Positions 7,210 to 53,635 of a DNA stretch of 64,000 nt are shown piece after piece. The position numbers and the translations under genes were made by a program. The stretch is taken from NCBI RefSeq assembly GCF_000381825.1, contig NZ_KB907123.1, positions 148,021-212,020 on the forward strand, given 5' to 3'. Source of the DNA: Thioalkalivibrio sp. ALJT. GTDB taxonomy: Bacteria > Pseudomonadota > Gammaproteobacteria > Ectothiorhodospirales > Ectothiorhodospiraceae. The notes under the pieces are model-generated. The model did not search any database. It saw only the letters and a program-made list of their open reading frames with translations, and was not told the origin of the DNA. Each line of letters starts with the position of its first letter. Within the stretch, counting starts at the first letter, position 1.

Positions 7210-8167
7210 TATTGATCATGACCTGGCGATCACCCTGGACGTTCGCCACCTGCGGGCGATTCGGGAGATCGTGCGCCTGGGCAGCGTGACGGCCGCAGCC
7301 GAAAGCCTCTGCGTGACGCAGTCGGCGCTGTCGCATCAGTTGCGTCAGTTGGAGGAACGGTTGGGCGTTACCCTGTTTGAACGCCGTACGCGGCCTGTGC
7401 GGCTGTCGGGTGCGGGCGAGCGATTGTTACAGGCGGCCGACCGGGTGTTGCCCGAGATCACTGCCGCCCAGCGCGATGTGGTGCAGATCCGCGACGGGGG
7501 GCGTGGCCGTCTCTTCCTGGTGCTGGAGTGTCACAGTTGCTTTCAGTGGTTGATGCCCGCGGTCGGGGCCTTTCGGCGGCACTGGCCGGAGGTGGAACTG
7601 GATCTGACCCTCAGCCATGGTTTCACGGCCCTGGACGCCTTGCGCAACGGTGATGTGGATGCCGCCGTTGCAGTCGATCCGGTGGATGATCCCGACCTGG
7701 AATCGGTCCACCTGATGGACTACGAAAATCTCCTGGTGGTGCCGGCCGGACACCGGCTGGCCGAGCGGCCTTGCGCGGCGCCGGAGGATCTACATGGGGA
7801 GACGTTGATCACGTATCCGGTCAGCGAGGAGCGTCTGGATATTTATCGGCGCTTTCTGCATCCGGCGGGGCTTTCGGTCCCGCGGCGGACCACGGAGGTC
7901 AGCGCCATGCTCCTGCAACTCGTGGCCAGTCGCCGCGGGGTTGCGGTCCTGCCGGACTGGGCCCTTCCGGAGCTGGAGGCCGGGCTCGACGGCGGGGCCG
8001 CCGGACCGCCTGCGACCCGGCGTGTGCGGCTTGGCCCGGAGGGCCTTTGGAGCCAGCTGGCGATCACCGTTCGTCGTGCCGACCGGGAGCGTCCGTACAT
8101 CCTGGATTTCGTCGCAACCGCGCGCGACATTCTGCGCGAGGCCAGGGGCCAGGGAGACGCTGATTGA
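7205..8167 (+). CDS. metR: LysR-type regulator MetR
   Basis: Transcriptional activator of metE that uses homocysteine as co-inducer. 320 aa: an N-terminal winged helix-turn-helix (about residues 15-70, [20 protein letters not shown]) and a LysR substrate domain with the MetR-type segment [21 protein letters not shown]. It is divergent from metE, the standard arrangement. The last four sense codons and the stop (G-D-A-D-stop) lie within the repeat terminus that begins at 8153, so the native C-terminus appears to have been replaced or extended by repeat sequence. Function is unlikely to be affected because the tail is beyond the effector domain. Confidence 0.93.
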
Positions 8168-8268
8168 ATCGCGCGTCCGCGCTCGAGTCGCTTTTGCGTG
8201 CGTTTAATGCGCGGTGACGGCCGTGCAGTCACTCTGCTACAGGTGAACCGCAACGCTGTGCGTGCGCG
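8153..8268. repeat. Half copy of the MITE-like repeat (right half, inverted)
   Basis: This stretch matches the reverse complement of the right half of the full copy at 45902-46252, beginning with the terminal GGAGACGCTGATTGAATCGC and continuing through the conserved hairpin GTGAC...GTCAC (about 8214-8233) and the CAGGTGAACCGCAACGCTGTGCG block. Similarity stops near 8268. It starts inside the last codons of metR and contributes its stop codon. Confidence 0.8.
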
Positions 8269-26238: not shown

Positions 26239-26256
26239 GCCCAACCCTGCCAAGCT

Positions 26257-26568
26257 AAGGAAATGCTGCTTTAATCGTACGTCCGCGCGGGTGCCCCTGT
26301 GTTCCGGGACAAGGCGCGTTAGTGCAGTGGGTAGAGGTTCTACCCGCCCGTTTCTGATGGATTCGGGGCGCAAAGCAGGATCGGGAACAGCGGGCACCAA
26401 CCCCGCGAGCGATTGAACACAGGGCCTGGCCGCCCGTTGTTGTCAAAATTGGGCATGCGCACGGCGTTGCGCTTCCTTTGTGCAGAATGACCGCACGGCA
26501 GTCACCGCGCCTTGTTCACACGCAAAAGCGACTCGAGCGCGGGCGTGCGATTAAGGCAGTGTCTCTCC
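26257..26568. repeat. MITE-like repeat, full copy B
   Basis: About 312 bp, collinear with the copy at 45902-46252. Its left end (AAGGAAATGCTGCTTTAATCG) and right end (GTGCGATTAAGGCAGTGTCTC) are degenerate forms of the terminal inverted repeat. Conserved internal hairpins: GGGTAG-N5-CTACCC (26329-26345) and TGAC..GTCA near 26497. It sits between nudE and cysQ without breaking either. There is no open frame with coding character inside. Confidence 0.85.
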
Positions 26569-26595
26569 AAACACCCGGGAAAACGGGAGTTCCCC

Positions 26596-44841: not shown

Positions 44842-45408
44842 ATGAAAACGCACATGTTCACGATTGCCTTGCGCGGACTGCTGGCCGCCGGGGTGTTGTG
44901 GTTGCTGGCGGGCTGCGCCGGTTTGCCGGCCGACCTGGCCCCGCTGCCCGACGCGGCGCCGGACCGCGAACAGGTGCTGGCAGACCCCGCCGCAGTCCGA
45001 GGCGAGACCGTGGTATGGGGCGGGGTGATCGCGGACATCGAGAACACCTCCGGGGGGACTCGACTGGAGGTGGTCGCCCGCGAACTCGACCGTGAAGGTC
45101 GGCCACGGGAGTCGGACGGCTCACCCGGTCGTTTCCGGGCGTTCAGCACTGGTTTTCTCGATCCGCAGATCTACAGCCAGGGGCGCGAGATCACCGTGCG
45201 CGGCTCGATTCAGGGCACCGAGGAGGGCCACATCGGCGACTACGCCTACACCTTCGTCTCGCTGCAGGCCGATGCCGTACACCTCTGGCCGCGACGGCCG
45301 CCGTTGACGGATCGTCGCCTGCATGACCCGTTTTACGATCCATTCTATCGCCCGTGGGGACCGCGCTTTGGCCCGCCCGGACGGATTAACGCCTATTCGT
45401 GGTTCTGA
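44842..45408 (+). CDS. Slp family outer-membrane lipoprotein, first copy
   Basis: 188 aa. The lipobox LLAGCAG gives the lipidated Cys near residue 24. Slp domain: VVWGGVIADIENTSGGTRLEVVARELDREGRP, then GRFRAFSTGFLDPQIYSQGREITVRG, and SLQADAVHLWP. Proline/Phe/Tyr-rich tail (DPFYDPFYRPWGPRFGPPG). The stop overlaps the start of a second, related lipoprotein gene by one base. Slp proteins are starvation- or stress-linked outer-membrane lipoproteins; the function is not known. Confidence 0.88.
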   Translation: MKTHMFTIALRGLLAAGVLWLLAGCAGLPADLAPLPDAAPDREQVLADPAAVRGETVVWGGVIADIENTSGGTRLEVVARELDREGRPRESDGSPGRFRAFSTGFLDPQIYSQGREITVRGSIQGTEEGHIGDYAYTFVSLQADAVHLWPRRPPLTDRRLHDPFYDPFYRPWGPRFGPPGRINAYSWF

Positions 45409-45905
45409 TGAAACGCTCCCGTGTCCTGATCCCCTGGTTGGCCATTTTCCTGCCGTTCGTGCTCGCGGCCTGTGCATCGGGGCCGCTGGAGGCTCCGGCG
45501 GATGCCGCTGCACAGATCGAGCCGCGTGCCGTGACCGCGGAGCGCCTGCCGGTTGACGAGCAGGTGTGGGGTGGCGTGATCGCGCGGGTGGATAATCGCG
45601 CCGAGGCGACCGTGATCGAGGTCGTGGGTTATCCGCTCAGCCGACAGGAGCCCCAGACCCGGCAGTCCACGACGGGCCGCTTCCGCCTGCGCGTGGAGGG
45701 GTTTGCCGATCCGGTCGACTACCGCAGCGGCCGCCGGGTGACTGCGGTGGGTACGGTCAGTGGTGTCGAGGCAGGGCAGATCGGCCAGTCCGACTACAGC
45801 TTCCCGGTGCTGGAGGCCCGCTCCGTGCATCTGTGGCCCGAGCGCGAGCCGTCACATCCCTCCGGTGGCGTGCGCTTCGGCATCGGTATCGGCATCGGGC
45901 TTTAA
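45408..45905 (+). CDS. Slp family outer-membrane lipoprotein, second copy
   Basis: 165 aa, ATG sharing a base with the previous stop (TGATG). Lipobox VLAACAS. The same Slp layout as the upstream gene (VWGGVIARVDNRAEATVIEVVGYPLSRQ, GRFRLRVEGFADPVDYRSGRRVTAVG, LEARSVHLWPE), so the pair is a tandem duplication that has diverged strongly. The stop codon TAA consists of bases that begin the terminal inverted repeat of MITE copy A at 45902, so the repeat abuts or created the end of the gene. Confidence 0.88.
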   Translation: MKRSRVLIPWLAIFLPFVLAACASGPLEAPADAAAQIEPRAVTAERLPVDEQVWGGVIARVDNRAEATVIEVVGYPLSRQEPQTRQSTTGRFRLRVEGFADPVDYRSGRRVTAVGTVSGVEAGQIGQSDYSFPVLEARSVHLWPEREPSHPSGGVRFGIGIGIGL

Positions 45906-46252
45906 GGAGACGCTGATTGAATCGCACGTCCGCGTGGGTGCCCCCCAGTTTCTGGAGACAAGCGTTCCGAGACAAGGCGCCTCAAACAGCGGGTAGTGGT
46001 TCTACCCGACCGTTTCTAATGGATTCGGGGCGCAACGCAGGATCGGGCCATATTCATTCAGAATCGGGGGGAGGCACCAACCCCACAAGTCATGGAAAGG
46101 AGGGGCTCGGCCGCCCGTTGTTATCAAAAACGGGCGCGCGCACAGCGTTGCGGTTCACCTGTAGCAGAGTGACTGCATGGCAGTCACCGCGCATTAAACG
46201 CACGCAAAAGCGACTCGAGCGCGCACGTGCGATTCAATCAGCGTCTCCTTAA
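45902..46252. repeat. MITE-like repeat, full copy A with perfect terminal inverted repeats
   Basis: 351 bp. The ends at 45902-45929 and 46225-46252 are perfect 28-bp inverted repeats beginning TTAAGGAGACGCTGATTGAA. Inside are three stem-loops: CGGGTAG/CTACCCG (45990-46008), CGCCCGTT/AACGGGCG (46111-46135) and GTGACTGC/GCAGTCAC (46169-46187). There is no transposase. TTAA at both tips is compatible with TA-targeting elements of the IS630/Tc1 type (inference). Related copies are at 26257-26568 and 8153-8268 (half). Confidence 0.88.
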
Positions 46253-46312
46253 GGCGGGGCGGGACGTCGTTCCCCGGCGCGCCCGCCCGTTCTCCGCAAC
46301 CCTGGAGTTGCC

Positions 46313-47485: not shown

Positions 47486-47507
47486 GTGCGATTCACTCAG
47501 CGTCTCC
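47486..47507. repeat. Solitary MITE terminus next to traB stop
   Basis: GTGCGATTCACTCAGCGTCTCC matches the right terminal repeat of copy A with a single mismatch. It directly abuts the stop codon of the TraB gene (TAG then GGAGACGC on the minus strand). Confidence 0.72.
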
Positions 47508-48722
47508 CTAGCCGCCGAAGAGGTGGCTGAAGACGCGGGCGCCACCGATATAGGTGCCGGCCGCAGACCCGAGTGTGGTGAGGATAAACACGAGCAAAAC
47601 GCGGGAGACTCGATTGCGCCACCAGCCTTGCGGGGTCGTGGTGTCCTGACGCAGGCGGGCAAAGTCGTCCACGCGCGGTTTGCGCAGGAACAGCTCGGCT
47701 GCGGCCGCGACAAAGCCCACGCCGATGGTCGGGTTCAGCGAGGTCAGCGGCGCGGCCAGTGCGGCGGTCAGCACGGTCAGCGGGTGCGCCAGAGCGATGA
47801 TCGCGCCAATCGCGGCCAGGCCACCGTTGATCATTACCCAGTCCATGACCATCTGCAGGCCGATGTCCGGGTTGCGCAGGAAGCCGATGACGAAGCCGGT
47901 CAGGATCACGCCGACGATCACCCAGGGCAGGATCTTCGGCCAGCGGGCCTTCGGCGGCGGCTGATCGAGGGAGTCCAGGATGGCGTCGGGCGGAGTCAGC
48001 TCGTCTTCAGTCTGGGTTGCGATCCCGGGCAGGTGCCCGGCGCCCACCACGGCCAGGATGCGGCGATGCTGGCCGGATTCGGCCAGACGCCGCAGGTGAG
48101 CCGCCATGTACTGGTCGCGTTCGTGGATCAGGGTGCGGTAGAGATCCTCGGACTGTTCGGCAAACTCGCTGAAGGTGGACTCCAGCATGTCGCCTTCCTT
48201 CAGCCGTTCGATCTCGGACTCGTCGATCTTCTCGCGCGACAGGACCGAGCCAAACAGCCCGCCAACAAGACCCATGCGCTGCCACCAGGGGACGGCGCGA
48301 TAGGTTCGGCGCAGCGTCAAACCGAGGTCGCGGTCGATCAGGGCCAGCGGCAGACCGCGATCCAGGGCTGCATCCATTGCCGCGCGCATCTCGGCCCCCG
48401 GCTCGATCCCGTACTGGTCGGCCAGCCGCTGTTGATAGGCGCCCAGCGCGAGGCTCGCAGCGATCATCGGGGCCTGGCCCTGGCGCATCACGCTGAACAG
48501 GTCCATGCGGCCGACCGCATCCGGGTCGAGCATTGCGCGCTGGCGGCTCTCGCACAGCTCGATGGCCACGGTATCGAACGCGCCGGTGTCCACCAGGGCG
48601 CGCACCTTCTCGGCGCTGGCGCGGGATACGTGGGCGGTGCCCAGCACCACGACCTCCGTATCGCCCAGTTGCAGGACGCGGTGGGGTTCGTTGGTGATCA
48701 GTTCCTGTACGGCTGGATTCAT
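47508..48722 (-). CDS. TraB/PrgY family membrane protein
   Basis: 404 aa. The N-terminal TraB domain (TEVVVLGTAHVSRASAEKVRALVD, AIELCESRQRAM) carries the conserved His and ExC-like pattern proposed to form a metal-dependent protease-like site. From about residue 255 four or five helices follow (WPKILPWVIVGVILTGFVIGFL, AAIGAIIALAHPLTVLTAALAAPLTSLNPTIGVGF). The family includes pheromone-shutdown PrgY and TraB of plasmids; the role in gammaproteobacteria is unknown. Last gene of an operon with the lipoprotein, cyclase and phosphatase genes. Its stop touches a solitary MITE end. Confidence 0.88.
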   Translation of the reverse strand: MNPAVQELITNEPHRVLQLGDTEVVVLGTAHVSRASAEKVRALVDTGAFDTVAIELCESRQRAMLDPDAVGRMDLFSVMRQGQAPMIAASLALGAYQQRLADQYGIEPGAEMRAAMDAALDRGLPLALIDRDLGLTLRRTYRAVPWWQRMGLVGGLFGSVLSREKIDESEIERLKEGDMLESTFSEFAEQSEDLYRTLIHERDQYMAAHLRRLAESGQHRRILAVVGAGHLPGIATQTEDELTPPDAILDSLDQPPPKARWPKILPWVIVGVILTGFVIGFLRNPDIGLQMVMDWVMINGGLAAIGAIIALAHPLTVLTAALAAPLTSLNPTIGVGFVAAAAELFLRKPRVDDFARLRQDTTTPQGWWRNRVSRVLLVFILTTLGSAAGTYIGGARVFSHLFGG

Positions 48723-53613: not shown

Positions 53614-53635
53614 GTGCGATTCAAGCCGCGTCTCC
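53614..53635. repeat. Solitary MITE terminus at the end of the diguanylate cyclase gene
   Basis: GTGCGATTCAAGCCGCGTCTCC matches the right terminal repeat of copy A except for about three bases. Read on the minus strand it supplies the codons G-D-A-A and the TGA stop of the diguanylate cyclase, in the same frame as the terminus that ends metR. Confidence 0.65.

Follow-up and report, generated by a model that had tools for sequence, protein, structure and literature searches.

A short repeated sequence in the genome of Thioalkalivibrio sp. ALJT (copy A) is a non-autonomous element inside a TTAA duplication, and the family to which it belongs is, judged by its sequences, an IS5-type, type II miniature inverted-repeat transposable element (MITE) rather than an IS630-type MITE. 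The family probably comprises non-autonomous elements that an IS5-family DDE transposase mobilises in trans, with a core kept between exchangeable ends. Copy A was found in the window (the whole 64,000-nucleotide stretch of DNA analysed, on contig C3 of the 2.66 Mb host genome, G000). Conservation of the body of the element far beyond the genus goes further than the claims of the original prediction, and is not visible from the window alone.

Copies in the window and in the genus Thioalkalivibrio

The features of copy A and of the other copies in the window are listed in Table 1. Copy A is bounded by an inverted repeat of 36 nt (45899-45934 and 46220-46255, 94% complementary) and its ends form 24 perfect terminal base pairs followed by one mismatch. 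The original prediction gave it perfect 28-bp terminal inverted repeats and three internal hairpins; the repeats were described correctly, but their first four bases, TTAA, belong to the target duplication, and all three hairpins are present. The longest ORF encodes 111 amino acids from a TTG start. Compared with the commonest form in the genus (280 nt), copy A is modified and longer: the place of its second hairpin is filled in the commonest form by GCTTTTGC, which pairs across arm 3.

Table 1. Element copies, their parts and their target duplications in the window (positions are those of the window)
Feature	Position	Strand	Remarks
Half copy	8153-8268	-	One terminus and most of arm 3
Copy B (L080), target duplication CTAA, left	26255-26258	.	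Right side reads CCAA, 26567-26570
Copy B, 308-nt relative	26259-26566	+	Genotype SLSLL; matches positions 1-280 of the family model (E=8.7e-32)
Copy A, target duplication TTAA, left	45902-45905	.	Supplies the TAA stop codon of ORF 45399-45905
Copy A, 343-nt element, long form	45906-46248	+	Genotype LLLLL; two arms between termini 45906-45933 and 46221-46248
Arm 1 distal hairpin GGGTAG...CTACCC	45991-46007	+	Conserved core hairpin
Local hairpin GCCCGTT...AACGGGC of the long module of copy A	46113-46135	+
Arm 3 distal hairpin GTGACTGC...GCAGTCAC	46169-46187	+
Copy A, target duplication TTAA, right	46249-46252	.
Solitary terminus	47490-47507	-	1 mismatch; adjoins CTAG 47508-47511
Solitary terminus-like match	53618-53635	-	2 mismatches; no clear duplication

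The predicted relationship of copy B to copy A is confirmed by its end-to-end alignment with the family model, and the half copy and the two solitary termini were recovered with the terminus pattern, which at up to three mismatches has five matches in the window (at 8153, both ends of copy A, 47490 and 53618) versus 0.04 expected. Stop codons were observed at two of the YTAR sites, TAA at 45902-45905 and TAG at 47508-47511, the latter ending a reverse ORF (47508-48722), and a rough test of ORFs points to stop codons at several more copies in the host genome.

When the host genome was searched with copy A, 41 matches longer than the bare terminus were found in 40 distinct places. This number is a lower bound, two further two-ended copies (L089 and L090) having been found only by a search for the terminus, which returned 74 terminus-like sites compared to none for a reversed-pattern control. 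The family predicted from the window, MITE-like, structured and without a transposase, is thus supported as genome-wide in its host, with at least 40 copies or pieces. Copy A has matches in 14 of the 40 genomes searched (the host included), all of them Thioalkalivibrio, and in none of the 15 from other families. The 135 oriented copies range in length from 223 to 347 nt, a set from which the 67-nt copy L088 was left out; the latter (301-367 of its locus in the host genome) is a miniature that consists of two termini and little else. Another unusual arrangement, L181 of genome G041, consists of an element, TTAA, and then a second terminus with no element body after it, as though the duplication made by the first copy had served a later one. 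In the left flank of L019 (approximately 869-935 of the query), a stretch of about 65 nt that matches dozens of places in several Thioalkalivibrio genomes is another dispersed repeat family.

The elements are shorter than 500 bp, have terminal inverted repeats and no transposase ORF, are multicopy and dispersed, and are associated with target-site duplications and empty sites. In the available text of PMC10969869, the type II MITEs of prokaryotes, exemplified by Correia, QMITE, Chunjie and ERIC, are similarly short sequences with terminal inverted repeats, target duplications, many copies and no transposase, mostly intergenic, with stable secondary structure and only the termini in common with an insertion sequence (IS).

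Target sites, termini and the putative mobiliser

The target was characterized in 136 two-ended copies from 12 genomes, copies that miss either terminus or have less than 25 nt of flank being left out. Perfect YTAR direct repeats bound 84 of the 136, and 211 of the 272 ends are YTAR (CTAG 134, TTAA 44, TTAG 22 and CTAA 11). Because CTAG is scarce in this DNA (seven occurrences in 63 kb of the window), the choice of target is strong. Non-palindromic direct repeats, TTAG/TTAG or CTAA/CTAA, at L011, L028, L089, L134, L171, L173 and L194 indicate that the duplication is 4 bp long. The TTAA tips of copy A had been taken as a hint of TA-targeted insertion; TA does lie within the target, but the duplication is the 4-bp YTAR and not the 2-bp TA. 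The flanks of several copies from outside Thioalkalivibrio (TTAG..CTAG, TTAG..CTAA) are compatible with a 2-bp TA duplication, and the carriers therefore may not be one IS subgroup.

Orthologous sites were empty in the relatives compared: copy A is missing from its place in seven aligned relatives and copy B from its site in 14 of 14, so that for these two copies the finding by which the original prediction would have been refuted, copies at one and the same place in all relatives, did not occur. At the site of copy B, several of the 12 junctions shown read CTAG, and the L018 site is empty in the nearest relative, where CTAG stands in its place. The seven relatives have no TTAA at the site of copy A, the nearest of them reading CTGA, and for this reason the empty site is not itself proof of duplication.

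At element ends in the host genome, the CTAG beside the GG of the element is changed to CCAG at 13 of 60 ends (for example, L002, L007, L017 and L019), versus 7 of 212 ends elsewhere. The mirror change to CTGG was not seen at element ends, and four copies have CCAG/CTGG flanks that thus look inverted. Very short patch repair (Vsr) was considered as the cause and rejected: the host genome has no Vsr match, and in the Vsr-positive genomes G005 and G021 CCAG occurs at only 1 of 34 and 0 of 8 ends, respectively.

The termini match one end of IS5-family insertion sequences of the genus, which terminate in GGAGACGCTGATTTAATCCG and similar sequences and mostly YTAR-type flanks. In one of these (L101), GGAGACGCTGATTTAATCCG follows TTTAG, and its outermost 18 bases are identical to the T-variant of the element terminus (18/18; copy A, 17/18). 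The transposase, with DUF772 and DDE domains, scored 319 bits versus a cut-off of 140 for NF033581 (IS5 family). The family resembles NF033581-type insertion sequences in its outer 18 bp and YTAR-type flanks, and differs from them in having no transposase and in carrying one and the same IS end at both sides, in inverted orientation, where the IS has distinct left and right ends. In a second subfamily of the host genome (L517-L520, four copies fetched), both sides carry the other end of the IS, GGGAAACACTGATC(A/C)ATG or a sequence close to it. In genome G040, a MITE and a putative mobilising IS5-family IS abut end to end and share one CTAG (L102, 446-1963).

Transposase matches were found in 8 of the 30 genomes of the genus, some of them only fragments. 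The host genome combines termini matching an IS5-family IS with zero matches to a transposase of this type, and none was found in other copy-rich genomes, among them G041, G005, G001 and G002; the mobiliser in these genomes has therefore been lost or is a different one.

Modules, folding and the core beyond the genus

Copy lengths differ in steps of about 15 nt because each of five sites has two alleles, short (S) and long (L). The commonest genotypes among the 135 copies are SSSLS (35), SSSLL (25), LLLLL (22) and SLSLL (20). All four allele combinations occur, over all copies, at 7 of the 10 pairs of sites, which indicates that recombination or recurrent change has shuffled the alleles. Outside Thioalkalivibrio the arms have the length of the short form, which therefore looks ancestral from these comparisons.

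The 280-nt SSSLS consensus pairs nearly throughout, in the shape of a cloverleaf, as a terminal stem, arm 1 (about 100 nt), a small hairpin and arm 3 (about 100 nt), with folding energies of -191.7 and -194.0 kcal/mol for the two strands; the z-score of the interior fold is -9.4 and weakens to -3.3 for LLLLL. In an alignment of 34 of the 35 SSSLS copies (L219 being left out for its length), 105 pairs were recognized with 98.7% of cells paired, and 18 of the 105 have changed on both sides, versus 4.5 +/- 1.3 in shuffled alignments (0/500) and 1-3 in slid controls. Private changes in the terminal stem are mainly uncompensated (47 versus 6 compensated); those common to five or more copies are mostly compensated, with the exceptions of A.C at position 21, present in 49 copies, and of a few minor groups such as AC at position 5, GT at position 7 and GA at position 14. 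This pattern suggests that spreading lineages tend to retain symmetric ends.

No strand preference is evident from GU and AC events (11 versus 16), and these balanced deviations do not favour RNA over DNA as the folded molecule. The arms fold on average 6.7 kcal/mol better in the motif sense (36/38). This bias was considered as evidence for RNA and rejected, GU pairs in the arm folds being balanced (102 sense versus 94 antisense). A search of the window with Rfam recognized no family, and among 17 loci searched at E<=1 there were four matches, all below the gathering score (the best, mir-214 in L316, with 26 versus 66.7 bits).

At E<=0.01, covariance model R1, built from the Thioalkalivibrio SSSLS copies (105 pairs, effective sequence number 0.55), had matches in 27 of 271 genera of Gammaproteobacteria (33 of 369 genomes), the host and its relative G023 included; the best match outside Thioalkalivibrio has E = 4.6e-34. 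With model R2, matches at E<=0.001 were obtained in 143 of 398 Pseudomonadota genomes (the host included), representing 75 of 213 genera, and by hand count about 90 of the 143 genomes reach E<=1e-20. Copy numbers from R2 are lower bounds, five candidates per genome having been scored. In the window, R2 matches copy A weakly (E=4.4e-7) and copy B well (E=3.8e-17). The 18 loci fetched with R1 have a stem of 26-32 nt, arms of 93-105 nt and usually a CCC-loop-GGG hairpin between the arms. Alignment of these with two plasmid and two Thioalkalivibrio copies gave a set of 22 elements with a mean identity of 48% and 15 invariant columns, of which 13 lie in a motif, C-AAGGCG and AACGC-G with their reverse complements. 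Pairing in 84.8% of cells, versus 54.3% when shuffled, is partly circular as the sequences were chosen by models, and selection of alignment A3 and of the fetched loci with structure models likewise inflates pair counts.

The motif is present once per arm, each arm being a hairpin with internal loops, and is inverted between the two arms. Taken as C(A/T)AGGC with AAC(G/A)... at set positions, it occurs in 51 of the 60 arms from the 30 R2 loci fetched, versus none of 1293 flanking windows; for the 18 R1 loci the count is 31 of 36 arms. It is not strict: 9 of the 60 arms miss even this looser pattern, and exact AAGGCG paired with CGCCTT together with a terminal repeat is found in only 4 of the 30 R2 loci, many having CTAGGC or CAAGGCA. 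Some of its bases are left unpaired by the fold and yet are nearly invariant, whereas the outer arm stems diverge between genera.

Carriers of the core include Azotobacter chroococcum (pAcX50f) and Halomonas sp. PA16-9, where it has another terminus with CTAG on each side, a Pseudomonas aeruginosa PA83 plasmid (81% identity over 97% of a related query), and a 200-nt copy on a plasmid of Candidatus Magnetococcus massalia that was missed by R1 and found by R2. The Azotobacter terminus matches IS5 weakly (H19 and H26; 18-20 nt, E 2-5), a lead only. BLAST gave no plasmid match for L327. For L323 it gave no match in E. coli genomes and, among plasmids, four records that all fell short of 80% coverage. 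In viral contigs at least 120 stretches match the exact pattern, with two short R1 matches among 80 loci; the pattern matches look like chance.

Accounts of MITEs usually treat them as IS remnants, one genus at a time. In the available text of PMC10969869, the type II MITEs come each from one genus or a few families; the body described here differs in occurring with varied termini across genera of Pseudomonadota at the threshold given above. In its inverted hairpin pairs, and in sub-families with alternative complementary stem bases, the core resembles the REP and REPIN sequences associated with RAYT in the available text of PMC3733652; unlike a REP of 20-40 bp, the element is several times longer, its hairpins do not have the size of REP hairpins, and it lies between DDE-type IS ends with target duplication. 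No description of a cross-genus family of this sort was found in the open-access literature, including the available text of PMC10969869, PMC3733652, PMC5756416, PMC4853749, PMC8618304 and PMC5552945, and single members may already be in ISfinder as MITEs. The two-hairpin core looks, from these sequence comparisons, like an overlooked and widely shared passenger between different mobile-element ends.

Explanations of the family and their implications

The element, which inserts at YTAR with a 4-bp duplication, would be mobilised by an IS5-family transposase acting in trans. This transposase may need only the outer ~18 bp, in which case the core could change its carrier by taking the ends of any resident IS5-like element; the two Thioalkalivibrio IS ends and the weak Azotobacter matches suggest such an exchange. 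The core may be retained for a predicted function as a folded nucleic acid. As the arms are inverted, each DNA strand, or a transcript in either direction, has one hairpin in the same sense, and this hairpin is most likely read by a putative host factor, widely shared, that would aid the persistence or spread of the element. The combination of varied ends with a conserved core suggests that selection acts on the core. A tentative proposal, its chances falling somewhat short of even, is that the core functions as a module of its own, dates far back in the Pseudomonadota and is re-clothed in resident IS5-like termini, its hairpins being read by a conserved cellular factor.

The main rival to a selected core is descent combined with the correction of palindromes. 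The family would then be an ordinary MITE with IS5 ends round an inert palindrome, its core widespread through descent and horizontal transfer, and its complementarity kept by hairpin-templated repair or template switching. The abundance of type II MITEs with stable secondary structure (available text of PMC10969869), the mainly uncompensated private changes of the terminal stem, which fit occasional templated correction, and the absence of strand preference all agree with this account, but palindrome correction does not keep unpaired bases constant, and the unpaired motif bases are nearly invariant while the outer arm stems diverge; terminal changes common to several copies are also mostly compensated, with few exceptions. 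An ordinary MITE is accordingly rated as unlikely, though far from negligible. Similarly doubtful is a cis-acting role as RNA, in which the element inserts at gene ends and its folded transcript sets mRNA end formation, processing or stability. Such action has been described for known MITEs (PMC10969869, section 4.1, in the available text), stop codons coincide with copy A, with the solitary terminus at 47490 and, as the rough ORF test suggests, with several other host copies, and the arms fold better in the motif sense; yet that bias has no matching GU excess, no Rfam model reached threshold, and stop codons may just be target places since YTAR includes TA and CTAG is rare.

The wide family might also be an artefact of covariance models that catch any large three-arm palindrome, R1 being dominated by pairs, both strands of the same element being matched and many R2 matches being weak (E near 1e-5). 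The fixed places of the motif in the arms and not in flank windows, the arms of 93-105 nt in all 19 elements folded, and the mere two short R1 matches in 684 kb of viral contigs picked for motif words make this highly improbable. Least probable of all is the class originally suggested, an IS630/mariner-type MITE that inserts at TA: every YTAR target contains TA, and palindromic TTAA and CTAG cannot separate a 2-bp from a 4-bp duplication, but this class is contradicted by the non-palindromic 4-bp repeats in Thioalkalivibrio and the match of the termini to IS5-family ends.

For the preferred reading, a core kept between exchangeable IS ends, the retention of the body with different ends in 75 of 213 sampled genera suggests that the interior of the element, not its ends, is the unit of selection. 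The core offers a defined motif (CAAGGC...AACGCnG), unpaired bases that are kept in each arm, and many natural variants with which its reader may be found.
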